Assembly: GCA_916048095.2 (NCBI GenBank)
Contig: OU696592.1
Location: 2,596,415-2,660,414, forward strand
Direction: 5' to 3'
Length of the DNA: 64,000 bases
Source: Sacculina carcini
Lineage: Eukaryota > Arthropoda > Thecostraca > Sacculinidae
The notes under the pieces are model-generated. The model was not told the origin of the DNA and did not search any database. It was given only the letters and a program-made list of their open reading frames with translations. The position numbers were made by a program, and so were the translations under genes. Positions within the stretch are counted from its first letter, which is position 1; each line of letters begins with the position of its first letter. Positions 5,791-21,838 of the stretch are shown in pieces.

Positions 5791-5939
5791 CCCCAGTCTA
5801 TTTACAGCCCAAACACCCTAAAATGATGGACATGAGGAATGGAATGATGAAATAAATAAGTGTGATAGTGAACAAAATGAATGTGAAAGTCAAGAAATAA
5901 AACTCAATAAATAATTCTAAAAGGCAAAAGCCGTAAAAA

Positions 5940-6650
5940 CTAAAAAATGCAACCCTCAATGACCGCCGATTGCTCCTGTCCGAGAACAACGTGAATAGTC
6001 CGAACGGATCCAAGAAAACGTTGACGCGCCTCTGAGAATGATGAGTATTCCACCAGGATGTGCTGCACGGAGAGACGTGCATTACATGCGCTGCACGTGG
6101 GTTCAGGTTGTCCGAGTAAAAGAGTGCGATGCGTATCGTACGTGTGACCAACACGCAGACGACAGAGCGCCACTTCCTCGGACCTCTTCCGGCGAAATGA
6201 GCACATCCAATGTCCGATTTCGGGCTTCACAGCTTTAAATTTGTTAGAACCACATTCGTCCCAGGAGAGCTGCCAGCGAGAACGGATAAAACTATGTATA
6301 ATAGGATAAAAGTCCGAATACGGAATGGGAAAGTTAAAATAAAATTAATATAAGTCTAGTTCAGCAGCTCGTTTTGCGGCTCTGTCAGCTCGCTCGTTGC
6401 CCAAGATACCAATATCGGCCGGAATCCAGCAGAACTTTACGCGCTTGCCCTGGTGGTGGATGATATCAAGAGGGATAAAAATCCTCTGTAAAAGAGGATG
6501 TAAGGAGAAAGACGAAAATGAAGTTAAAGCACTAAGCGAGTCGGATAGAACTAAAAACAATGAAAATGAAGATGAGCGAATAAAAACCAGGCACAGCAGG
6601 ATAGCTTACAGTTCAGCCGTGTAAATGGAAGCGCTCGGTGGCAGCGTGCT
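5940..6650 (-). pseudogene. RNase H and C-terminal tail of the I/Nimb-like ORF2
   Basis: RNase H pieces are IYTAEL, VLSDSLSALTSF (catalytic Asp) and WIPADIGILGNERADRAAK. The first lies in a different frame from the others. The tail (6230-5940) has VALCRLRVGHTYDTHRTLLL, then CSACNARLSVQHILVEYSSF, the Cys/His motif that closes ORF2 in I, R1 and related clades. Frame changes and the missing RT mark it as dead. Confidence 0.75.
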
Positions 6651-6666
6651 CGAGCGGCACGTAACT

Positions 6667-7593
6667 CTACTTACGGCTGCGCTGTAAGCGACCCCAGCAA
6701 CGACATCGCTCTCGCAACGCCGTAAGACACGCGTCTGTCCACCAAGGAACAGGACGCCGCCGGGGAAGCGATGCCGTACGCGGAATGCTCTGTTTGGCAC
6801 AGGTGAAAATAGCCTCAGTAAAATCTGCGACGCTGGGTCGAAGTGTGGGGTCGCCCATGGCTTCCAGTGTCAAGCAATCATAGCGGACCCAATGAGCTCG
6901 TTTGAAATTCCATCTCGGTGGTCGTGTTCCCAGCATAGGTACCTCATTGAGACAGATCCATATAGGGAAGTGGTCACTCCCATGCAGACTGTTCTCAACG
7001 GTCCAGCTCGTGGATGCCTGCAGACTGGGACTGCACAGACTGAGGTCCAGAGCGGACATGCTTCCCGATGGCATGGTACAATGTGTATATGTGCCTGTGT
7101 TTAAAATACCTATGTCCAATACAGTTAAAATATCCTCCATAATAAAACCACGGCTACAATATGCATCACAACCCCAAAAAGGGCTGTGAGCATTAAAATC
7201 GCCCAAAACATAAAAAGGGGGTGAAAGTGAACTGATTAAAAACTCGACGTCAGCCCTTGGGAACGGGCGACCAAGCGGCAGGTACAATGAGCACCCTCTC
7301 ACCTCCCTACCACCCAGCCAGCACCGAACCGCAACCACCTGCAAATCTGGCTGAATATGCAGACGGCGACAGGTTATACTGGTGCGAACAGCCAGCATAA
7401 CCCCGCCATGGGCTATAGTCGAGCTGGGATTCTCATATCTAAAAACATTGAAATCCTGAATACTAAAATACGAAGAAGTTAAAAGCTTAGTCTCCTGTAT
7501 TGCTAAAATCGACGGTTGTCGGGAGTGTAAAATATGCAGTAAATCATTAAAATTCGGTCTAATACCTCTAATATTCCATTGTAAAATGGACAT
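6667..7593 (-). pseudogene. ORF2 N-terminal apurinic/apyrimidinic endonuclease (I/Nimb-like)
   Basis: The endonuclease nicks target DNA to prime reverse transcription. ATG at 7593 begins MSILQWNIRGIRPN. Catalytic blocks are visible: AIQETKL (Glu), VLGDFNAHSPFWG (Asp/Asn), LDLSLCSP and GSDHFPI (Asp/His). The domain is open as read. Where RT should follow, the sequence passes within about 20 codons into RNase H, so about 1.5-2 kb is missing by comparison with the family. Confidence 0.8.
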
Positions 7594-7886
7594 AAAAATA
7601 AATATAATGGAATAAAATACATATGAATACTCCCGTTGAAAAGTCACATATACACTAACAACCAGGTAGCACAGATACCTAATCGCATCGCTTGGCCGAT
7701 CGTCCTCTCTCCGCGTCAGGCGGGGACCCACTTGGAGAGGCCGAGAGCTTCCGCTTAGAGGAACTCTCCACCTCCATGGCAGTGGTGGGAGTCGCTCCGT
7801 CGTGTGCGGAAGGCGGTGCGCTAGCAGCCGCCGAGTGCGGAGATGCAGGGACTGCGCTCGCTTTGTGACCGGAAGATGCTCGCCGG

Positions 7887-9191
7887 TCACTCCTCGGTGA
7901 GGCTCACTTGACCGAACGGCGGCTCTTGTGTCGAACCACCGTCCAGTCTCCGGGTTTCCTCCGGTTCGGAGACGACCGCTTTGCTGGCTTGGAAACCTGC
8001 TGAGCGGCCGGTTTTTGCCGCCCTGACTAACCGGCATCGCTGCCGATTTGCCAGCGCGATCCATCGGCCGGTTGACCGGCCGATCGGCGACCCGCTGAGG
8101 TCGCCGCTCAGCAGCCTTTTCAGGCTGCTGGGGAGCGGCCGCCTCGGACCGCTGGATTGCGGCCGTCTGGGGCCGCTGGGTCGCGGACGCTTTGGACCGC
8201 TGGGATGCGGCCGTTGGCGACCGCGACACGGCAGCCTCCCCAGGCCGCCGATCAACCGGTGTTGGTTCATGCTCATGTTTGTCAGCCTCAGGTTCGATCA
8301 GCTTCAAGCCCATTCGTCCCGCCAGCTTCAAAAAGTCTCCAACAGTCAGCTTCTCCAGCAACGAGTCGACAGACTGTGGAGGCTGAGCCGACTTCGTGAC
8401 GACGCCGACATAGGACGGGCCTGATGGATGCGAGCTGCGATATACAGCACGCGCCTCGCCGAAACTGCAGCGCTGGGCAGCGCGGATAGCCAGAATTTCT
8501 TTTTCTTTCAGTCATTCCGGGCAGTCACGCGACGAGGACGCATGACCGCTGCTCGTGCAATTGACGCAGAAATACTCATTGTCACAATCAGCAGCGGTGT
8601 GCCGTTCGGATGAGCAGCGTCCGCAGATCTCAGCACGGTTGCAGCGGGAGCTCGTATGCCCGAAACGTTGGCACCTGTAGCACCGCATCGGGTTGGGTAC
8701 GTAGGGGCGGACACGGATACGCTGACGGATGTCACCTATCTTGATGTCATCCGGCAGAACAGCACTGTCAAACGTGAGGAAGAAAGAGTGCGTTGGCACC
8801 TCGCTACCCTCACGCAGTCGGACGATGCGCTCCACGCGGATGACACCTTGGGATGCCAATCCGTCGCAAATATCCTCATCATCGACGCCCTCTAGCGCAC
8901 GACCGAACAGAACACCTCTGGCGTGGTTCATTGTCGAGTGCGCACACACCGAGATGGGGTGCTCACCCAACGCTTATTTTCGCCCGTACCTACGCGATAA
9001 CGGAACGTAGTTGCCTTTATCGCGCGGGTTGCTGCCGTCTCAGTGCCGTATTTAACCATCAACGATCTATCACGTTGTCTGTTGGTGTCGACAGGCACGT
9101 CGTCAATGTTTTTGAAACCGTCCATGCGACGGAACGGGTTCAATGAAGATAGTTTTATTTTCTCATCGGTGCTGGCAAACACCAACACCAT
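7887..9191 (-). pseudogene. ORF1 (Gag-like, three CCHC knuckles) of the I/Nimb-like element
   Basis: ORF1 binds element RNA in this group. The N-terminal part (NPFRRMDGFKNIDDVPVD) is followed after a frameshift near 8,940 by ARGVLFGRALEGVDDEDI and three knuckles: CYRCQRFGHTSSRC, CGRCSSERHTAADC (both C-X2-C-X4-H-X4-C) and CVNCTSSGHASSSRDC (longer last spacing). A further frameshift near 8,510 leads into a Pro/Ser/Arg-rich tail with repeated SGPRRP-type blocks (8276-7887). At least two frame changes make it non-functional. Confidence 0.75.
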
Positions 9192-9240
9192 CGGAGTCGG
9201 AGCAACACAGTCAGTTCAGTCTCTGACTAACCCTCGCTGA

Positions 9241-9702
9241 GTGTGCACGTGTTTTCCGTCGCTCGTTCGCGCCCGGCTGTCTACGCTTCGCTGACGCTCA
9301 CAGACGACAGATCCTGCTTTCTGCTAACGCTGAGTGTTCATTGAGTTATATTTCAGTTGTTTTATTATTATATTTGATTTAGCGTTATTTTGATTTTTCA
9401 TTACTCGTTTTGTTCATTGATAATATTTGCCTTTTTAAAGGCGGATATTTTCTTCTTGCGAGCTCATTCATTTACTTTTAAGACTGTTTAAGACTTTTAA
9501 GTCAATTAATCTTTTTTTATTTCAGGTTATATATTTGAATTTTTATATTTTGTTTCTGAATGTGATTGAGAATCAGGGTTCGCAGCCATAGTTGCTTTGC
9601 AATCTTCCTGCTGAATTCTCTCATCACATTCTTTTTCGTCACTTTTCAGTTCAGTTTGTATATTATTTAATTTAACTTTGTCTATAAACATAAGTGTTGT
9701 TC
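9241..9702 (+). other. Probable 5' UTR of CR1-like element copy 1
   Basis: No gene. This 460-bp stretch lies between the reverse-oriented I/Nimb element and the long CR1-like ORF. Its first part is GC-richer and then becomes T-rich. It likely holds the 5' UTR and internal promoter of the LINE, but copies 2 and 3 are truncated and cannot confirm the 5' limit. Confidence 0.35.
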
Positions 9703-12700
9703 ATGGATATATGTATTATTTTCTGTCTCATGTCTGTTTTGTTGATGTGGCGGGCCGAAAATTGTAGCCCCGCCCCGACGGCTAACGGCCGGTTTTCCCG
9801 TTTTCCGTCAGCGCCCAGCTCTTTCCTCGCACTGAGGTGCCAACTAATTCTGTGTTGCTCTCATACTCTGTCTTTGTGGTCGCCCATTGGACATTTTGCC
9901 TTGCGATATGTGTTTAACAATGAGCTCTCAATAAATTGTTCTCACATGTGTTTTCTAGTGTTTTTCTTGTGTGTGTATTTGTGTGTATGTTTGCTTTGTA
10001 TTGTGTGTGTTGTATGCTTGTTTTTTGTTGTGAAATTTCGTATGCATGTGTTATGTGTTGTGTTTTTGTGTTCGCATGCGTCGTGCATTATGTGTTTATT
10101 TGTATGTCTGCTTTGCGTTGTGTGTGTGCCTTCTCACACCGTGGATTTGTCGTTTCTACTGATGATGTGTGGCGATGTTGAAATGAATCCCGGTCCTGCT
10201 CGACCACAAAAACGATTTTCAAATATACTTTTCGCCAACATCAGCGGCTTGTATAAGAACATCAGAGATTTGACAGCAGCCAGTCGCTCCAAGGATATCG
10301 TTATCTGTGCCGAAACGCTTGTGTCCGATTATCGGGACCAATCTGAGCTCTTGATGCCAGGTTTCAGTAAGCCATTGCTAATCAAACGTGACTCAAAAAA
10401 CAGGCGGCGTGGCATGGCAGTGTACGTACGCAAAGGCTTTTCAGCAACGAGAATTACAGCTCACGACTGCACTTGTCATGAATTTATGCTGCTGCGTGTC
10501 AACACCGCCTTGATGAATTTTTACATCTTTGGAGCCTACCGAAATCCAGACAGTAACGACTCTATCTACGAATGTCTCTTGTCAGCCATGTCAACAATTC
10601 AGGAGAAGGACACCAAGTCAGCATTTGTATTTGTGGGAGACATGAACGCCCATCACCGTGAGTGGCTCTTGTCGACATCTCCTACAGACGCTCATGGTAG
10701 AGCAGCATATGATTTCTGCAACATTTCTGGCTGCTCCCAAATGGTGTCCGGTCCCACACATCAAGCGGGAAACTGTTTGGACTTGGTTATGACAGACGTC
10801 TCAGATATCGTGAGTGTAAGCGTGGAAGCTCCAATAGGAAGTTCAGATCACTCGTCGCTGTCCGTGAAGTTGACATTGAGACAGAAGGTTTCTCCTTACA
10901 CGATTTCAAGGCTCGTGCACATGAAGAACAATGTTGACTGGGTGAAGGTGAATGATGAATTGGAAGCAATTAAAGTTTCAAATCTGCAGCAGAAGGAATG
11001 CCCCATCGATGCATTGAACAAATACATTACCGATGTCATCTCAAGGAGAGTGCCTACTAAAAAACTACGTTTTCGCTCTGATGACAAAGCCTGGTTCACC
11101 AACGAATGTCGCAGCGCTCGGGAATCCAAGCAGGAAGCTTACCACAAGTGGCTCCAATCACGCTCAGCCGATTCATGGAATGTCTACACTGAGGCCAGAC
11201 GGCATGCTGAGCATGTGTATTCAGAAGCGGAAACACGTCACTCAAAGAAACTTGCTGAAAAGCTAACATCTGCCAATGACGCCCACAAATGGTGGTCAAC
11301 GTTGAAATCGTCAGTGTTTGGACATGACCTGTCTGTCCCTCCTTTATTTTCAGCGAACGGTGAGCTCAAAATCAACCCAACAGAGAAGGCAGAGTTGCTT
11401 ATGGATTACTTCAATACCAAGCAATGTCAAGGGTCCATTCCGTCTGACGATTCATCTGTCCTCGCCCCGAAAATCAAAGGCATTGCCTTCCGATCAAAAG
11501 AAGTGGCGAATCTCATGAAAGACCTTGATGCCCACGGAGGAACAGACCCTCTGAATATGTTTCCGCTATTTTTCAAGAACACGGCAGATACTCTAGCTCC
11601 GAAGCTCAGTGTTCTTTTCAGGCGCTTGATGAAGACTGGTTCGTTTCCATCATGTTGGCGGGTTGCGAATATCACGCCCATACCAAAAGGAACCAATTCA
11701 GCTGATGTTGCAAACTACCGGCCAATATCAATTACGCCGATTCTGTCCAAAATATTCGAGCACTTGATATCTTCCAGACTGTCCAAGTTCCTGGAGAGCA
11801 ACAATCTGCTGTCGGAAAACCAATTTGCATACCGCAAAAAACTCAGCACGACTGACGCTCTGCTTACTATCACGCATGAGCTCCAGCAAGTGCTAGACAA
11901 AGGCAGTGAAGCCTGGATTGTGCAGTTGGATTTCTCGGCAGCATTTGACCGTGTGAGCCACCAGGGCTTGTTGCAAAAACTGAGAAAGATTGGAGTCGGC
12001 GGCCGTTTGCTAAGTGTTTTGCATCAATTTCTATCCAATCGCGTACAACGTGTTGCCATCGATGGAGCATACAGTGGCTGGCAGAGCATTGCGTCCGGTG
12101 TCCCGCAGGGAAGTGTGTTGGGTCCTATTTTGTTCAACATTTACACCGCTGACCTGTACACAACCACACGCAACCCTGTATATGGATATGCTGATGATAT
12201 CACCTTGATGGCTGTAATTTCATCTCCTTCGGACAGACCACAGGTGCGTCAAACGGTCAACGACGATCTCAGCAGCGTCCTGAAGTGGTGTGAGAGGTGG
12301 AATATGATGCTGAACACTTCGAAATCTAAATGCTTGTTGGTTTCTAGGTCACGTACCGTTCAGCCTTCACATGGAGCTATCCTCATAAATGGCGCCCAAC
12401 TCAACGTGTGTGATGAGCTCAAAATATTGGGAGTACATGTAGACTCAAAGCTGACGTTTGAGAGTCACATTCGGAAGCTAGTTTGTTCGGCATTGCGGAA
12501 ACTGGGAATTATAAGAAAGGCATATCGGATGTTCGGTAGCAGCACAATCTCAAAACGTTGTTTTCGCTGCTTCATTTTGCCAATTCTGGAGTACTGCGCC
12601 CCCGTGTGGTCTTCTGCTGCGGAATGTCACCTCAATCTCATCAACAGAGTTGTTAGAACCTGCAAGTTTCTCTGTGGTAACTTGGTTCTTGGTGATCTTT

Positions 12701-12927
12701 GCCATCGTCGAAAGGTCAGCAGCGTGTGCATGCTGTACAAGATCAAGCACAACGACCATCATCCGATGAGCAAGTCAATTCCTGATGATTTCGTGGCAGC
12801 AAGAAGCACACGGTTTACATCCAAACAGCATTCCCAGTGCATGGCTCCAATTCGTTTTCGTACAAAACAATTCCAACGTTGCTTTCTTCCGGCCACTGTG
12901 TCTACTTGGAACACGTTGAAGCAGTAG
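9703..12927 (+). CDS. CR1-like ORF2 with N-terminal 2A peptide, endonuclease and reverse transcriptase (copy 1)
   Basis: Uninterrupted frame of 1,074 codons from ATG at 9703. Order: a Cys/Phe/Val/Leu-rich hydrophobic N-terminus (about residues 80-147), then LLMMCGDVEMNPGP with the 2A motif at residues 158-165, then an apurinic endonuclease (ICAETL, FVGDMNAHHREW, SSDHSSL) and a full RT: PIPKGTNSADVANYRPISI, LDFSAAFDRVSH, SGVPQGSVLGPILFN and YGYADDITLM at 12,181. The C-terminal region has CAPVWSSAAECHLNLINR, usual for CR1/L2/Rex1 relatives. A 2A sequence makes the ribosome skip a peptide bond, releasing the upstream peptide; such motifs are known in APE-type LINEs of several invertebrates. No separate ORF1 was found. 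As the only intact copy of three it could be recently active. Clade is called at CR1-superfamily level only. Confidence 0.85.
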   Translation: MDICIIFCLMSVLLMWRAENCSPAPTANGRFSRFPSAPSSFLALRCQLILCCSHTLSLWSPIGHFALRYVFNNELSINCSHMCFLVFFLCVYLCVCLLCIVCVVCLFFVVKFRMHVLCVVFLCSHASCIMCLFVCLLCVVCVPSHTVDLSFLLMMCGDVEMNPGPARPQKRFSNILFANISGLYKNIRDLTAASRSKDIVICAETLVSDYRDQSELLMPGFSKPLLIKRDSKNRRRGMAVYVRKGFSATRITAHDCTCHEFMLLRVNTALMNFYIFGAYRNPDSNDSIYECLLSAMSTIQEKDTKSAFVFVGDMNAHHREWLLSTSPTDAHGRAAYDFCNISGCSQMVSGPTHQAGNCLDLVMTDVSDIVSVSVEAPIGSSDHSSLSVKLTLRQKVSPYTISRLVHMKNNVDWVKVNDELEAIKVSNLQQKECPIDALNKYITDVISRRVPTKKLRFRSDDKAWFTNECRSARESKQEAYHKWLQSRSADSWNVYTEARRHAEHVYSEAETRHSKKLAEKLTSANDAHKWWSTLKSSVFGHDLSVPPLFSANGELKINPTEKAELLMDYFNTKQCQGSIPSDDSSVLAPKIKGIAFRSKEVANLMKDLDAHGGTDPLNMFPLFFKNTADTLAPKLSVLFRRLMKTGSFPSCWRVANITPIPKGTNSADVANYRPISITPILSKIFEHLISSRLSKFLESNNLLSENQFAYRKKLSTTDALLTITHELQQVLDKGSEAWIVQLDFSAAFDRVSHQGLLQKLRKIGVGGRLLSVLHQFLSNRVQRVAIDGAYSGWQSIASGVPQGSVLGPILFNIYTADLYTTTRNPVYGYADDITLMAVISSPSDRPQVRQTVNDDLSSVLKWCERWNMMLNTSKSKCLLVSRSRTVQPSHGAILINGAQLNVCDELKILGVHVDSKLTFESHIRKLVCSALRKLGIIRKAYRMFGSSTISKRCFRCFILPILEYCAPVWSSAAECHLNLINRVVRTCKFLCGNLVLGDLCHRRKVSSVCMLYKIKHNDHHPMSKSIPDDFVAARSTRFTSKQHSQCMAPIRFRTKQFQRCFLPATVSTWNTLKQ
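10174..10197 (+). other. 2A-like ribosome-skipping motif (DVEMNPGP)
   Basis: These codons read D-V-E-M-N-P-G-P, an exact match to the D(V/I)ExNPGP consensus, preceded by a hydrophobic LLMMCG. Skipping would fall between the last Gly and Pro, giving a roughly 164-residue leader and an endonuclease-RT protein beginning with Pro. Confidence 0.85.
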
Positions 12928-13750
12928 GCATTCTCGCAGAACAATTTGAAGAAATTCAAGGCCAAAGTAAATGAAATGCTACTGAAAGAGCGGAATTGAC
13001 TGTTGAGTCTTATTAATTGTATATTTATTCATATTTATTGTTATTTATTCATGCTTATTGTTATTTATTTTCTATTTATTTATATTTATTCCTATTTTAC
13101 TCTCTATTTATTACTATTTATCATTGGTTGTTGTTATTTATTAAATTATACTTTTACTCAGTGTTGGCTGTTGTTGTTTATTGAATCATATTTATTGTTG
13201 TTGCTGTTTATTGAGTCATATTTATTGTTGTTGTTGTTTATTGAATCATATTTATTGTTGTTGCTGTTTATTGAATCATATTTATTGTTGTTGTTGTTTA
13301 TTGAATCATATTTATTGGTGTTATTGTTTATTGAATCATATTTATTTGTGTTGTTGTTACTTATTGAATCATATTTATATTTATTGTTGGATGTTTCTTT
13401 TTTGAATCATATGTATTGTTCTTGATTGTTATTTATTACTTATTTATCAATATTTATTCTTATTTATTGATGGCTGTTTTTTAATGAATCACATATTTAT
13501 TGTTGATTGTTATTATTTATTGAGGAACGTGGGCGGAGTGACATTATGGATTGTTATCGGATGATGGTTTATTATTTATTGTTATTTATTTATTATTTTC
13601 TTTCCAACTCTCTTTCTAGACTTATTTCTTTTCGAACTCTCTTTCTCTCTTAATCTTTTGGGCGCTTCCGGTACATGGGGCCACCTTAGGGTGGTAATAG
13701 TGCTTGCACTCTTCCCATGCTACTGGATTTGCCTGCAATTAATAATAAAC
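12928..13750 (+). repeat. 3' UTR of CR1-like copy 1 with 30-bp minisatellite (about 13,167-13,372)
   Basis: T-rich 3' UTR containing seven TTTATTGAATCATA-type units at 30-bp spacing, followed by CGGTACATGGGGCCACCTTAGG and the element end TTTGCCTGCAATTAATAATAA. The repeat is open in two frames (repeating LLLLLFIESY or CCCCLLNHIY), which creates spurious ORFs. Confidence 0.8.
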
Positions 13751-14384
13751 ACGAGTGTCGTCCTGGTCGTGTCTCAATGCATGACCACCTTTCGGCGGCC
13801 GTGGCCGATCGCCCGATGCACGACCAGCAGTTGGGGTGGTTGTAGGTTTTGAAGCCATTAATTTTTTGTTTGTCTCTGCGCACACGACCACCCACCTCTG
13901 CACGGCCCTACTGGGGGGAAGGGCAGAGCCAGCATGGGATGCCACGCCAGTGGTGGTGCGCGCTGTACGGGCACCGAATACCCCTGAGCTGGCTGCGAGA
14001 TCCGCCCGGTACGAGTCCGCGGGAGCTACAGCGCCGGGCCCGGACCAGCGACCCCACCGGTTCATCTGGACTCGGCAGCTGCAGCCTACTGCAAACGGCG
14101 GACACTGCACCGGGCGGGACCCCCTCGAGCACCACACACCTCACCCTTGACCCTTTTGTGCCCTATCCGGCCACCCGTGCCGGCGTCGGACCATTCTCTC
14201 CACTGTCGAGCAGCCACACAGCGGCCCCGTCGGGGTTCGATGCGCAGGCCAAAGACGAGTGTTGCGTCACGCCACCACTATACCCCGGGTGACGTAACAC
14301 TCAGCGGCCAGGATCCTGTTTGCCGATCCGACGGGGGAGGGTTTCCAGATGGCCGTTGGCTGCTAAACCGCTCAACCGCCCTTT
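13751..14384. repeat. GC-rich spacer repeat R, first copy
   Basis: A 634-bp block much more GC-rich than its surroundings separates CR1-like copies 1 and 2 and recurs, apparently identical, at 17,118-17,751. Its last 40 bp (GATGGCCGTTGGCTGCTAAA) resemble the start of the SINE-like repeat at 1483. Several overlapping short ORFs on both strands show no family motif, so I do not call a gene. It may be part of an unclassified retroelement into which the truncated LINE inserted. Confidence 0.6.
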
Positions 14385-16294
14385 AAAAACTACGTTTTCG
14401 CTCTGATGACAAAGCCTGGTTCACCAACGAATGTCGCAGCGCACGTGAATCCAAGCAGGAGGCTTACCACAAGTGGCTTCAATCACGCTCAGCCGATACA
14501 TGGAATGTCTACACTGAGGCCAGACGGCATGCTGAGAATGTGTATTCAGAAGCGGAAACACGTCACTTAAAGGAACTTGCTGAAAAGCTAACATCAGCCA
14601 ATGACGCCCACAAATGGTGGTCAACGTTGAAATCGTCAGTGTTTGGACATGACCTGCCTGTACCTCCTTTATTTTCAGCGAACGGTGAGCTCAAAAGCTA
14701 CCCAACAGAGAAGGCAGAGTTGCTTATGGATTACTTCAATACCAAGCAATGTCAAGGGTCCATTCCGTCTGACGATTCATCTGTCCTCGCCCCGAAAATC
14801 AAAGGCATTGCCTTCCGATCAAAAGAAGTGGCGAATCTCATGAAAGACCTTGATGCCCACGGAGGAACAGACCCTCTGAATATGTTTCCGCTATTTTTCA
14901 AGAACACGGCAGATACTCTAGCTCCGGAGCTCAGTGCTCTTTTCAGGCGCTTGATGAAGACTTGTTCGTTTCCATCATGTTGTCGGGTTGTGAATATCAT
15001 GCCCATACCAAAAGGAACCAATTCAGCTGATGTTGCAAACTACCGGCCGATATCAATTACGCCGATTCTGTCCAAGATATTCGAGCACTTGATATCTTCC
15101 AGACTGTCCAAGTACCTTGAGAGCAACAATCTGCTGTCGGAAAACCAATTTGCATACCGCAAAAAACTCAGCACGACTGACGCTCTGCTTACTATCACGC
15201 ATGAGCTCCAGCAAGTGCTAGACAAAGGCAGTGAAGCCTGGATTGTGCAGTTGGATTTCTCGGCAGCATTTGACCGTGTCAGCCACCAGGGCTTGTTGCA
15301 AAAACTGAGAAACATTGGAGTCGGCGGCCTCTTGCTAAGTGTTTTGCATCAATTTCTCTCCAATCGCGTACAACGTGTTGCCATCGATGGAGCATACATT
15401 GTCTGGCAGAGCATTGTGTCCGGTGTCCCACAGGTAAGTGTGTTGAGTCCTTTTTTGTTCAACATTTACACCGCTGACCTGTACACAACCACACGCAACC
15501 CCGTATATGGATATGCTGATGATATCACCTTGATGGCTGTAATTTCATCTCCTTGGGACAGACCACAGGTGCGTTAAACGGTCAACGACGATCTCAGCAG
15601 CGTCCTGAAGTGGTAAAAGAGGTAGAATATGATGCTGAAGACTTCGAAATCTAAATGCTTGTTGGTTTCTAGGTCACGTACCGTTCAGCCTTCACATGGA
15701 GCTATCCTCATAAATGACGCCCAACTTAGCGTGTGTGATGCGCTCAAAAAGCGTGTGTGATGTGCTGATAGCGTGTGTGATGAGCTCAAAAAATTGGGAG
15801 TACATGTAGACTCAAAGCTGACGTTTGAGAGTCACATTCGGAAGCTAGTTTGTTCGGCATTGCGGAAACTGGGAATTATAAGAAAGGCATATCGGATGTT
15901 CGGTAGCAGCACAATCTCAAAACGTTGTTTTCGCTGCTTCATTTTGCCAATTCTGGAGTACTGCGCCCCCGTGTGGTCTTCTGCTGCGGAATGTCACCTC
16001 AATCTCATCAACAGAGTTGTTAGAACCTGCAAGTTTCTCTGTGGTAACTTGGTTCTTGGTGATCTTTGCCATCGTCGAAAGGTCAGCAGCGTGTGCATGC
16101 TGTACAAGATCAAGCACAACGACCATCATCCGATGAGCAAGTCAATTCCTGATGATTTCGTGGCAGCAAGAAGCACACGGTTTACATCCAAACAGCATTC
16201 CCAGTGCATGGCTCCAATTCGTTTTCGTACAAAACAATTCCAACGTTGCTTTCTTCCGGCCACTGTGTCTACTTGGAACACGTTGAAGCAGTAG
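14385..16294 (+). pseudogene. CR1-like element copy 2 (5'-truncated, chimeric)
   Basis: Begins inside the region between endonuclease and RT, corresponding to 11,062 of copy 1, and contains the RT: FSAAFDRVSH and YGYADDITLM remain. Damage includes GVPQV instead of GVPQG, VLSP for VLGP, a stop at 15,575 (TAA where copy 1 has CAA), a TAA just after at about 15,615, and a duplicated GCGTGTGTGATG block at 15,730-15,780. All of these are shared with copy 3. From about 16,250 the sequence matches copy 1 instead, including the early stop after ACGTTGAAGCAG. Confidence 0.9.
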
Positions 16295-17117
16295 GCATTC
16301 TCGCAGAACAATTTGAAGAAATTCAAGGCCAAAGTAAATGAAATGCTACTGAAAGAGCGGAATTGACTGTTGAGTCTTATTAATTGTATATTTATTCATA
16401 TTTATTGTTATTTATTCATGCTTATTGTTATTTATTTTCTATTTATTTATATTTATTCCTATTTTACTCTCTATTTATTACTATTTATCATTGGTTGTTG
16501 TTATTTATTAAATTATACTTTTACTCAGTGTTGGCTGTTGTTGTTTATTGAATCATATTTATTGTTGTTGCTGTTTATTGAGTCATATTTATTGTTGTTG
16601 TTGTTTATTGAATCATATTTATTGTTGTTGCTGTTTATTGAATCATATTTATTGTTGTTGTTGTTTATTGAATCATATTTATTGGTGTTATTGTTTATTG
16701 AATCATATTTATTTGTGTTGTTGTTACTTATTGAATCATATTTATATTTATTGTTGGATGTTTCTTTTTTGAATCATATGTATTGTTCTTGATTGTTATT
16801 TATTACTTATTTATCAATATTTATTCTTATTTATTGATGGCTGTTTTTTAATGAATCACATATTTATTGTTGATTGTTATTATTTATTGAGGAACGTGGG
16901 CGGAGTGACATTATGGATTGTTATCGGATGATGGTTTATTATTTATTGTTATTTATTTATTATTTTCTTTCCAACTCTCTTTCTAGACTTATTTCTTTTC
17001 GAACTCTCTTTCTCTCTTAATCTTTTGGGCGCTTCCGGTACATGGGGCCACCTTAGGGTGGTAATAGTGCTTGCACTCTTCCCATGCTACTGGATTTGCC
17101 TGCAATTAATAATAAAC
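16295..17117 (+). repeat. 3' UTR of CR1-like copy 2 with 30-bp minisatellite (about 16,534-16,739)
   Basis: Matches the copy 1 3' UTR throughout by eye, including seven minisatellite units and their variants (GAGTCATA in unit 2, TTTATTGGTGTTATTG in unit 5-6). Offset is 3,367 bp. Confidence 0.85.
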
Positions 17118-17751
17118 ACGAGTGTCGTCCTGGTCGTGTCTCAATGCATGACCACCTTTCGGCGGCCGTGGCCGATCGCCCGATGCACGACCAGCAGTTG
17201 GGGTGGTTGTAGGTTTTGAAGCCATTAATTTTTTGTTTGTCTCTGCGCACACGACCACCCACCTCTGCACGGCCCTACTGGGGGGAAGGGCAGAGCCAGC
17301 ATGGGATGCCACGCCAGTGGTGGTGCGCGCTGTACGGGCACCGAATACCCCTGAGCTGGCTGCGAGATCCGCCCGGTACGAGTCCGCGGGAGCTACAGCG
17401 CCGGGCCCGGACCAGCGACCCCACCGGTTCATCTGGACTCGGCAGCTGCAGCCTACTGCAAACGGCGGACACTGCACCGGGCGGGACCCCCTCGAGCACC
17501 ACACACCTCACCCTTGACCCTTTTGTGCCCTATCCGGCCACCCGTGCCGGCGTCGGACCATTCTCTCCACTGTCGAGCAGCCACACAGCGGCCCCGTCGG
17601 GGTTCGATGCGCAGGCCAAAGACGAGTGTTGCGTCACGCCACCACTATACCCCGGGTGACGTAACACTCAGCGGCCAGGATCCTGTTTGCCGATCCGACG
17701 GGGGAGGGTTTCCAGATGGCCGTTGGCTGCTAAACCGCTCAACCGCCCTTT
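17118..17751. repeat. GC-rich spacer repeat R, second copy
   Basis: Second copy of the 634-bp spacer, apparently identical to 13,751-14,384, at an offset of 3,367 bp. No gene. Confidence 0.8.
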
Positions 17752-19733
17752 AAAAACTACGTTTTCGCTCTGATGACAAAGCCTGGTTCACCAACGAATG
17801 TCGCAGCGCACGTGAATCCAAGCAGGAGGCTTACCACAAGTGGCTTCAATCACGCTCAGCCGATACATGGAATGTCTACACTGAGGCCAGACGGCATGCT
17901 GAGAATGTGTATTCAGAAGCGGAAACACGTCACTTAAAGGAACTTGCTGAAAAGCTAACATCAGCCAATGACGCCCACAAATGGTGGTCAACGTTGAAAT
18001 CGTCAGTGTTTGGACATGACCTGCCTGTACCTCCTTTATTTTCAGCGAACGGTGAGCTCAAAAGCTACCCAACAGAGAAGGCAGAGTTGCTTATGGATTA
18101 CTTCAATACCAAGCAATGTCAAGGGTCCATTCCGTCTGACGATTCATCTGTCCTCGCCCCGAAAATCAAAGGCATTGCCTTCCGATCAAAAGAAGTGGCG
18201 AATCTCATGAAAGACCTTGATGCCCACGGAGGAACAGACCCTCTGAATATGTTTCCGCTATTTTTCAAGAACACGGCAGATACTCTAGCTCCGGAGCTCA
18301 GTGCTCTTTTCAGGCGCTTGATGAAGACTTGTTCGTTTCCATCATGTTGTCGGGTTGTGAATATCATGCCCATACCAAAAGGAACCAATTCAGCTGATGT
18401 TGCAAACTACCGGCCGATATCAATTACGCCGATTCTGTCCAAGATATTCGAGCACTTGATATCTTCCAGACTGTCCAAGTACCTTGAGAGCAACAATCTG
18501 CTGTCGGAAAACCAATTTGCATACCGCAAAAAACTCAGCACGACTGACGCTCTGCTTACTATCACGCATGAGCTCCAGCAAGTGCTAGACAAAGGCAGTG
18601 AAGCCTGGATTGTGCAGTTGGATTTCTCGGCAGCATTTGACCGTGTCAGCCACCAGGGCTTGTTGCAAAAACTGAGAAACATTGGAGTCGGCGGCCTCTT
18701 GCTAAGTGTTTTGCATCAATTTCTCTCCAATCGCGTACAACGTGTTGCCATCGATGGAGCATACATTGTCTGGCAGAGCATTGTGTCCGGTGTCCCACAG
18801 GTAAGTGTGTTGAGTCCTTTTTTGTTCAACATTTACACCGCTGACCTGTACACAACCACACGCAACCCCGTATATGGATATGCTGATGATATCACCTTGA
18901 TGGCTGTAATTTCATCTCCTTGGGACAGACCACAGGTGCGTTAAACGGTCAACGACGATCTCAGCAGCGTCCTGAAGTGGTAAAAGAGGTAGAATATGAT
19001 GCTGAAGACTTCGAAATCTAAATGCTTGTTGGTTTCTAGGTCACGTACCGTTCAGCCTTCACATGGAGCTATCCTCATAAATGACGCCCAACTTAGCGTG
19101 TGTGATGCGCTCAAAAAGCGTGTGTGATGTGCTGATAGCGTGTGTGATGAGCTCAAAAAATTGGGAGTACATGTAGACTCAAAGCTGACGTTTGAGAGTC
19201 ACATTCGGAAGCTAGTTTGTTCGGCATTGCGGAAACTGGGAATTATAAGAAAGGCATATCGGATGTTCGGTAGCAGCACAATCTCAAAACGTTGTTTTCG
19301 CTGCTTCATTTTGCCAATTCTGGAGTACTGCGCCCCCGTGTGGTCTTCTGCTGCGGAATGTCACCTCAATCTCATCAACAGAGTTGTTAGAACCTGCAAG
19401 TTTCTCTGTGGTAACTTGGTTCTTGGTGATCTTTGCCATCGTCGAAAGGTCAGCAGCGTGTGCATGCTGTACAAGATCAAGCACAACGACCATCATCCGA
19501 TGAGCAAGTCAATTCCTGATGATTTCGTGGCAGCAAGAAGCACACGGTTTACATCCAAACAGCATTCCCAGTGCATGGCTCCAATTCGTTTTCGTACAAA
19601 ACAATTCCAACGTTGCTTTTTTCCGGCCACTGTGTCTACTTGGAACACGTTGAAGATGGAGGCTTTCTCGCAGAACAATTTGAAGAAATTCAAGGTCAAA
19701 GTAAATGAAATGCTACTGAAAGAGCGGAATTGA
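17752..19733 (+). pseudogene. CR1-like element copy 3 (5'-truncated)
   Basis: Same 5' truncation point and coding lesions as copy 2 (stop at about 18,942, PQV, VLSP, duplicated GTGTGTGATG block). Its 3' coding end differs from copies 1 and 2: it reads ACGTTGAAGATGGAGGCT and continues to KKFKVKVNEMLLKERN before stopping at 19,733, probably the ancestral C-terminus. Copies 1 and 2 stop 13 or more codons earlier at GAAGCAGTAG. Confidence 0.9.
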
Positions 19734-20544
19734 CTGTTGAGTCTCATTAATTGTATATATATTCATATTTATTGTAATTTATTCATGATTATTGTTATTT
19801 ATTTTCTATTTATTTATATTTATTCATATTTTACTCTCTATTTATCGCTATTTATTATTGGTTGTTGTTATTTATTAAATTATACTTTTACTCAGTGTTG
19901 GCTGTTGTTGTTTATTGAATCATATTTATTGTTGTTGCGGTTTATTGAATCATATTTATTGTTGTTGTTGTTTATTGAATCATATCGATTGTTGTTGCTG
20001 TTTATTGAATCATATTTATTGTTGTTGTTGTTTATTGAATCATATTTATTGTTGTTGCTGTTTATTGAATCATATTTATTGTTGTTGTTGTTTATTGAAT
20101 CATATTTATTGGTGTTGTTGTTTATTGAATCATATTTATTTGTGTTGTTGTTACTTATTGAATCATATATATATTTATTGCTGGATGTTTCTTATTGAAT
20201 CATATTTATTGTTCTTGATTGTTATTTATTACTTATTTATTAATATTTATTCTTATTTATTGATGGCTGTTATTTACTGAAACACATATTTATTGTTGAT
20301 TGTTATTATTTATTGAGGAACGTGGGCGGTTTGACATTATGGATTGTTATCGAATGATGGTTTATTATTTATTGTTATTTATTTATTATTTTCTTTCCAA
20401 CACTCTTTCTAGATTTTTTTTCTTTTCGAACTCTCTTTCTCTCAGAATCTTTTGGCCGCTTCCGGTACATGGGGCCACCTTAGGATGGTAATAGTGCTTG
20501 CACTCTTCCCATGCTACTGGATTTGCCTGTAATTAATAATAATA
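19734..20544 (+). repeat. 3' UTR of CR1-like copy 3 with expanded 30-bp minisatellite (about 19,900-20,166)
   Basis: Homologous to the other two 3' UTRs but carries nine minisatellite units rather than seven, plus point differences. It ends in a (TAA)n-like tail (AATTAATAATAATAATAATAATT), which looks like the true LINE 3' end. Confidence 0.8.
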
Positions 20545-20784
20545 ATAATAATTGACAGGTCTTGTTTTTCTTCCCGCTGGGTGTATGGCCACCCTCCTCA
20601 CTGGCATAGGCCAGTGTGGGGCCGGATTAGTCGCCGACATTCCGACCATGCGGCTGGTTGTACCGGGTTACATGTTACCGGTAGCAGGCCGAGACCTGAC
20701 CAGACATGTCTGCCTTTAGTAGCCTTTTACGACACGCGGCAGCTACGGCGGCAAAATTCTAACCCCCTTACCGCAGGGGGGAAA
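20545..20784 (+). repeat. SINE-like repeat related to 1483-1655
   Basis: Starts right after the CR1-like tail. It shares GCCACCCTCCTCACTGGC and TTAGTCGCCGAC blocks with 1483-1655, and has GCCTTTTACGACACG and CTAACCCCCTTACCGCAGG near its end. No coding content. Class uncertain; no poly-A or target duplication was resolved. Confidence 0.4.
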
Positions 20785-21293
20785 TCTTATTTTAAATTTC
20801 CCATTCTGTATTCGGACTTTTATCCTATTATACATCGTTTCATCCGTTCTCGCTGCCAGCTCTCTTGGGACGAATGTGGTGCTGAAGCCCGAAATCGGAC
20901 ATTGGATGTGCTCTTATCGCCGAAAGAGGTCCGAGGAAGTGGCGCTCTGTCGTCTGCGTATGGGTCACACGTACGACACGCATCGCCATCTTCTACTCGG
21001 ACAACCTTAACCCACGTGCAGCGCATGTAATGCACGTCTCTCCGTTCAACACATCCTGGTGGAATGTCCATCATTCTCAGAAGCGCGTCAACGTTGTCTT
21101 GGATCCGTTCGGACTATTGACGAGGTTCTTGGACAGGAGCAATCGGCGGTCATTGAGGGCCGTATCTTATAATTTTTACGTATTTTGCCTTTTAGAACTA
21201 TTTATTGAATTTAATGTATTGACGTTCACATTAATTCCTTTCACCATCACCCTTATATATTTCATTGTTCCACTCTTCATATTCATCAATTAA
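20785..21293 (+). pseudogene. 3' end of a second I/Nimb-like element
   Basis: Plus-strand copy of the sequence seen reversed at 5,800-6,330: CCCGAAATCGGACATTGGATG, then the Cys-containing tail (TCSAC and QHILVE equivalents) and a shared 3' UTR ending near TTCATCAATTAATG. Only the last 500 bp remain, with frame breaks. This is the usual result of incomplete target-primed reverse transcription. Confidence 0.75.
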
Positions 21294-21838
21294 TGTGTTT
21301 TTTTTCTTTCTTTTTTTATTTTTACTTTTTTATTTCAGAAGTGTATTGACAATCACCACTCACATATAATAAATACAAACAGATACGTTTTGCCTTTACA
21401 TGCACACACACACCTATCAATTCAGTTAGCACCCGTAAATTTAACAACCACTGTACATTTTGGCAGAAACATTGAAACGCAAAACAACTCAATCGAGGCA
21501 CCAGCACAAACTACTCGCATGGGGAACATTTCAGTGAATCACACTAGTGGACGGCATTACGTTTGCCCGTATAGTGTCTAATGCTTGCGTTGTAGCTATA
21601 CAATGAGCGGTACGGTACAAGCTATACAATGAACGACAATTCAACAAATTCTCCAGAAATTGTGTCAAATGAGCGCGCCCACTCTTCAACAGAATGCGCC
21701 GAGTTCTTTAACATCAACTGCACATATACCGGTGTGCGGACGTTACAGGTATCATCCAAGTGAACAGATCATCATGTTCGCGAGTCCGTCACGTCAAAGC
21801 TTGTCACTCTGCCGCTCGTATTTCCTGACTCGCCACTA
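21294..21838. other. No gene seen
   Basis: Starts with a T-rich run (21,299-21,340). The remainder may include the 3' UTR of the adjacent minus-strand Tx1-like element, but no boundary is visible. Confidence 0.35.

Follow-up and report, generated by a model that had tools for sequence, protein, structure and literature searches.

A chimeric LINE in a three-copy array, best read as the product of unequal exchange within a tract shared by two insertions

How did three LINE copies on the same strand, separated by two identical copies of a segment (R), come to lie in tandem, and why does the middle copy resemble one neighbour in its first part and the other neighbour in its last? We addressed this question in the window, that is, the whole stretch of 64,000 nucleotides under analysis, which belongs to contig C30 of a 264-Mb assembly with 43 contigs, and with related copies elsewhere in the assembly. 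The parts of the locus are as follows.

7925-9208, minus strand: stretch of host element E to the left of copy 1; adjoins R in five of six fetched E copies (L003, L005, L006, L007 and L008); strand from open reading frames (ORFs) read by eye
9204-9208, no strand: left target-site duplication (TSD) of copy 1, AACAC; the same five bases lie at 13748-13752 and are single in E copies L005 and L006
9209-13747, plus strand: copy 1 (A), a young APE-type LINE of full length, whose ORF (9694-12927) encodes an endonuclease and a reverse transcriptase
12426-12885, plus strand: tract T of copy 1, without differences among the three copies; the derived changes define a minimum shared block of 12494-12857
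13748-14384, minus strand: first copy of R, read as the segment of E that separates the two LINE insertions; its first bases are copy 1's right TSD; contiguous with its flanks in E copies L003-L008
14385-17114, plus strand: copy 2, chimeric LINE that matches copy 3 as far as T and copy 1 beyond it; flanked on the left as copy 3 is and on the right as copy 1 is
15793-16252, plus strand: tract T in copy 2, putative site of exchange, from three-copy identity and alignment
17115-17751, minus strand: second copy of R, identical to the first
17752-20551, plus strand: copy 3 (B), older 5'-truncated LINE in E; right junction at this locus only, among 40 matches listed
19160-19619, plus strand: tract T in copy 3, likely conversion donor, from shared derived changes and the direction test
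20552-20779, minus strand: stretch of host element E to the right of copy 3; R adjoins it directly in E copies L003-L007, and 28 unaligned bases separate the two in L008

Comparison of the window with itself shows that positions i and i+3,367 agree over 12426-16252 (= 15793-19619), a repeat of 3,827 bp with 0 mismatches, and that the base adjoining each end differs. A first-pass annotation had placed this match at about 12,425 to 16,250, within two bases of the exact limits. It had also described copy 2 as a chimera bearing copy-3 variants followed by copy-1 variants, and the mapping of diagnostic sites that it proposed bears this description out. In a three-copy alignment spanning 11060-13750 (copy 1), 14385-17117 (copy 2) and 17752-20546 (copy 3), copies 1 and 3 differ in 189 columns. 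Copy 2 carries the copy-3 state in the first 89 of these (47 substitutions and 42 gap columns) and the copy-1 state in the last 100 (36 substitutions and 64 gap columns), with one switch, no alternation, no third state, no private column and no exception. Were the 83 substitutions ordered at random, one switch or none would arise with a probability of about 5e-24, a formal value only, as neighbouring sites are linked. The switch point falls inside a 460-bp stretch without any difference among the three copies (tract T). Length variants follow the same partition, as the first-pass annotation had indicated: the duplicated GTGTGTGATG block, with 42 bp extra, is present in copies 2 and 3 only, and a minisatellite with a 30-bp unit is 7.3 units long in copy 1 as well as copy 2, and 10.3 units long in copy 3. 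Three units of about 22 bp (AGCGTGTGTGATGAGCTCAAAA) are likewise found in copies 2 and 3 only, at 15727-15792 and 19094-19159, where they stop precisely at T's left boundary.

The surroundings of the LINEs belong to an older element. E copies elsewhere in the assembly read straight through both LINE insertion points of the window: in L003, L005, L006, L007 and L008, the stretch ending near 9208, the stretch 13748-14384 and the stretch 20552-20779 are neighbours (the last 20 bases of R are unaligned in L008, and the left part is seen from 8146 on in L005), and L004 shows R (from 13963) and 20552-20779 only. Because these copies are contiguous across the LINE sites, what the first-pass annotation had named a spacer is best described as 637 bp of the older non-LTR element E lying between two LINE insertions, and we rejected R as a transposon or spacer in its own right since the E copies carry it contiguous with both flanks. 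E itself appears to be a minus-strand non-LTR element, judging from ORFs read by eye and without a domain scan (8512-8970, CCHC-like; 6667-8361, endonuclease-like), and it probably extends further left than 7925.

Other repeats were seen in the window and elsewhere in the assembly. The segments 5811-6346 and 20783-21300 form an inverted pair, 85.6% alike over 536 columns, whose right member starts just past the end of E. A diverged relative (78-80%) of the E end at 20552-20779 lies at 1482-1630, seen through the E copies and directly at 1522-1630. Three E copies, at G000:C20:3353205, 3375439 and 3397666, are spaced 22,234 and 22,227 bp apart and possibly mark a large tandem array.

The junctions distinguish the outer copies from the middle one. 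Copy 1 is bounded by two AACAC, and copy 3 sits in the CCCTTTGACAGG of E with an apparent TSD of 2 bp only, TT (with 17750-17751). Copy 2 is flanked on its left by CCGCCCTTT, as copy 3 is, and on its right by AACACGAGTG, as copy 1 is, with no matching target-site duplication; such hybrid flanks point to a recombinant rather than an insertion. Full-length matches to the four kinds of junction occur at this locus only (2/40, 2/40, 1/41 and 1/40 of the matches listed, which are the best scored candidates). With the query for the 5' junction of copy 3, 21 of the 40 listed matches fall on G000:C35 (7.2 Mb), all within 0.1-3.0 Mb, a LINE-rich region.

Copies 1 and 3 are best taken as separate insertions of one LINE family into one copy of E. 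We rejected the possibility that they are old duplicates of each other, as their junctions and duplications differ and as they share 0 derived changes in the 1,366 sites 5' of T. The ORF of copy 1 (9694-12927) contains both Pfam RVT_1 (1.3e-36) and Exo_endo_phos_2 (2.3e-10). It also contains GDVEMNPGP at 10171-10197, a 2A-like, putatively ribosome-skipping motif upstream of the endonuclease and after a hydrophobic-rich stretch. Such motifs are known in non-LTR retrotransposons (PMC4981915), and copy 1 resembles the APE-type elements named there in combining endonuclease, reverse transcriptase and 2A-like motif.

The two insertions appear to differ in age. Outside T, over 2,078 sites polarised against 38 to 52 relatives, private changes number 10 in A and 60 in B (12922 is private in both), and A has 3 further private changes in 1,360 sites further 5'. 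By this measure of mutation load, B is the older insertion, with about 2.9% divergence since insertion as compared with 0.4-0.5% for A. For the polarisation, 72 loci outside the array were offered and 38 to 52 were used per segment; loci were dropped if the alignment covered <80% of the segment or had <93% identity, and only the best stretch was taken. The segment 13191-13339 was left out, giving 712 sites 3' of T, and gap columns were uncounted. This count replaced an earlier polarisation with only about 8-14 relatives per site. Trees of the segments gave no usable support value, and distances only were used.

Tract T departs sharply from the divergence around it. Its 460 identical bases (12426-12885, 15793-16252 and 19160-19619) contain 0 differences between A and B, whereas 80 of 2,078 sites differ outside it (Fisher p = 1.5e-7); the A-B distance is 0.035 in the 5' part, 0.000 in T and 0.071 in the 3' part. 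None of 20,000 random placements of 80 differences yielded a clean run of 460, the longest being 382. Moreover, A and B have eight derived changes in common within T (12494, 12556, 12570, 12624, 12660, 12669, 12679 and 12857), each present in 0 or 1 of 52 other copies. Outside T, shared derived changes number 0 in 1,366 sites 5' and 2 in 712 sites 3' (Fisher p = 3.5e-5); the two on the 3' side are uncommon elsewhere too (12951, 3 of 46 others; 13630, 1 of 50 others), which tells against the conversion reading. Constraint across the family was rejected as the source of this identity, since other copies show 7 to 14 mismatches to T and the changes common to A and B are derived. A third element as the source was also rejected: 37 of the 40 scored matches lie outside the array, all at 98%, in a search that scored the best 40 of 919 first-look candidates.

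A crossover keeps copies 1 and 3 whole, from separate chromatids, and therefore cannot alone explain why they are identical in T. The first-pass annotation had proposed an original array of copy 1, R and copy 3 that recombined within about 460 bp. The chimera and the exchange within T are backed by the hybrid flanks, but a history of exchange only is incomplete given the identity of A and B in T and their eight shared changes. Gene conversion between A and B, or one event that both converted and duplicated, is needed as well.

The direction of the conversion is likely from B to A. If T derived from A, 1.7-2.2 changes would be expected in it, and 13.3 if it derived from B, as compared with 8 seen; the likelihood ratio for B as donor is 26, or 112 with the further 5' sites of A, and assumes an even mutation density.

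Tract T can also be compared with L064, the nearest relative of A in the 5' part: 12 of 460 sites differ between L064 and A in T, and 3 of 1,366 upstream (p = 1.2e-5). However, the 3' part of A is also more diverged: 18 of its 19 nearest 5' relatives have 5-9 mismatches in 305 bp and L064 has 36, as compared with 3-8 mismatches in 1,366 for the 5' part and the same relatives. Raised divergence is thus not unique to T, which counts against the test with L064. That locus (C8:3914799-3916164 and its right flank) is 99.8% identical to A in the 5' part and only 84% over 12886-13190, and is perhaps another mosaic LINE.

Beyond the right edge of T by 37 bp, copies 1 and 2 have three changes within 9 bp (12922, 12925 and 12930), one of which ends the copy 1 ORF at 12927; copy 3 is changed at 12922 and 12923. 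This cluster possibly reflects error-prone repair next to the conversion, or chance.

We propose the following history. The 5'-truncated B would have inserted into E before A; the junctions and the mutation loads are directly observed, and the order is suggested by the loads. Full-length A would have inserted later, in the same orientation and 637 bp from B, in the same E copy. A stretch of 364-460 bp would then have been copied between the two, more likely from B to A (the sharing is observed, and the direction follows from the expected numbers of changes), creating a pair of perfect direct repeats at a distance of 3,367 bp. In the last step, the tract of B on one chromatid would have crossed over unequally with the tract of A on another, giving rise to copy 2 and to an additional R. 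Crossing-over is indicated by the one switch point, by the hybrid flanks and by the perfect identity of 3,827 bp, and unequal exchange within T is the best reading of copy 2. The most economical sequence of steps has crossing-over take place in the 460 bp that conversion had just made identical, since the second step uses the product of the first; the data would fit conversion either before or during the exchange, and leave the order of the two unfixed. With 0 differences between the two 3,827-bp units, their divergence has a 95% upper bound of 0.08%, so the exchange is recent, although an assembly loop would look alike. We lean, by a little, towards this whole history of two insertions, conversion and unequal crossing-over being correct.

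An assembly loop would mean that the assembler walked the T-R loop twice in a true A-R-B locus whose two LINEs already had T in common. A loop walked twice on a 460-bp repeat gives exactly the observed structure, including 0 differences in 3,827 bp, and among the listed matches the assembly holds no other copy of the junction for comparison. Against this, 43 contigs for 264 Mb suggest long reads, which would span 460 bp easily, and the shared changes in T require real conversion regardless; we thus consider such an artefact unlikely, and the finding of conversion would stand even if the third copy were a loop. A real event could instead have been a single repair, in which a broken end in A copied the tract of B, jumped back to the 3' part of A on the sister or homologue, copied through R and the 5' part of B, and then annealed within T to the other end. 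This scheme predicts the observed order, 5'A-T-3'A-R-5'B-T-3'A-R-5'B-T-3'B, exactly, and sequence insertion by multi-invasion repair has been described in yeast (PMC10499017); however, it requires two template switches and an annealing step, nothing favours it over two events, and we give it a small chance.

Crossing-over may alternatively have come before conversion, with copy 1 converted later from either of the other two copies. This order would end in the same sequence, but for copy 2 to carry all eight changes without a later conversion the crossover must fall between 12857 and 12886, and the exchange site would have been in sequence about 4% diverged; this order, too, strikes us as distinctly improbable. 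Finally, a LINE that had switched templates could have retrotransposed separately to give copy 2. The genome may contain mosaic LINEs, L064 being a candidate (99.8% versus 84% to A), but R is duplicated without a difference, the flanks are hybrid, and insertion does not duplicate 637 bp of target. The second R and the hybrid flanks in effect refute this explanation, to which we attach scarcely any weight.

Under our preferred history of conversion followed by exchange, the locus would be a nearly intact record of how interspersed transposons become a tandem array, with a readable order of steps: an older and a younger insertion, a patch made by conversion and, recently, an exchange inside that patch. 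We tentatively suggest, at rather less than even confidence, that conversion primed the crossing-over or that both took place in one multi-invasion repair event. If so, short ectopic conversions in nests of LINEs of unlike age would build patches of perfect identity that later become sites of copy-number change, and a single multi-invasion event would make this locus a natural footprint of that process outside yeast. The tract state in two-copy alleles is predicted to tell conversion before the exchange from conversion with it. If the array is real, it should be unstable now, as three perfect 460-bp repeats remain. Our search of the literature on conversion and recombination found no account of this locus, which says little as it was made without the species name.

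Recombination between LINEs that makes duplications with a chimeric LINE is already established, and the present locus adds an instructive extra step. In the three human genomes described in PMC9675761, 96 LINE-1 events were reported among 493 Alu and LINE-1 events, and 4 of the 96 were duplications. Our locus shares with the LINE-LINE homologous recombination described there the same orientation, a homologous breakpoint, a chimeric element and a period of a few kilobases, whereas here the exchange tract shows signs of a conversion that came before or together with the exchange, and a single older element contains both LINEs. For interlocus (ectopic) gene conversion, PMC3924818 gives most tract estimates as 50 to several hundred bp, and the 364-460 bp of T fall within this usual size; in contrast to the duplicated genes of that account, conversion here would have joined two transposon copies, with a gain in copy number following or accompanying it. 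Multi-invasion-induced rearrangement (MIR2), as presented in PMC10499017, is known from yeast assays and could give conversion and insertion in one event, and nothing at this locus separates it from two events.
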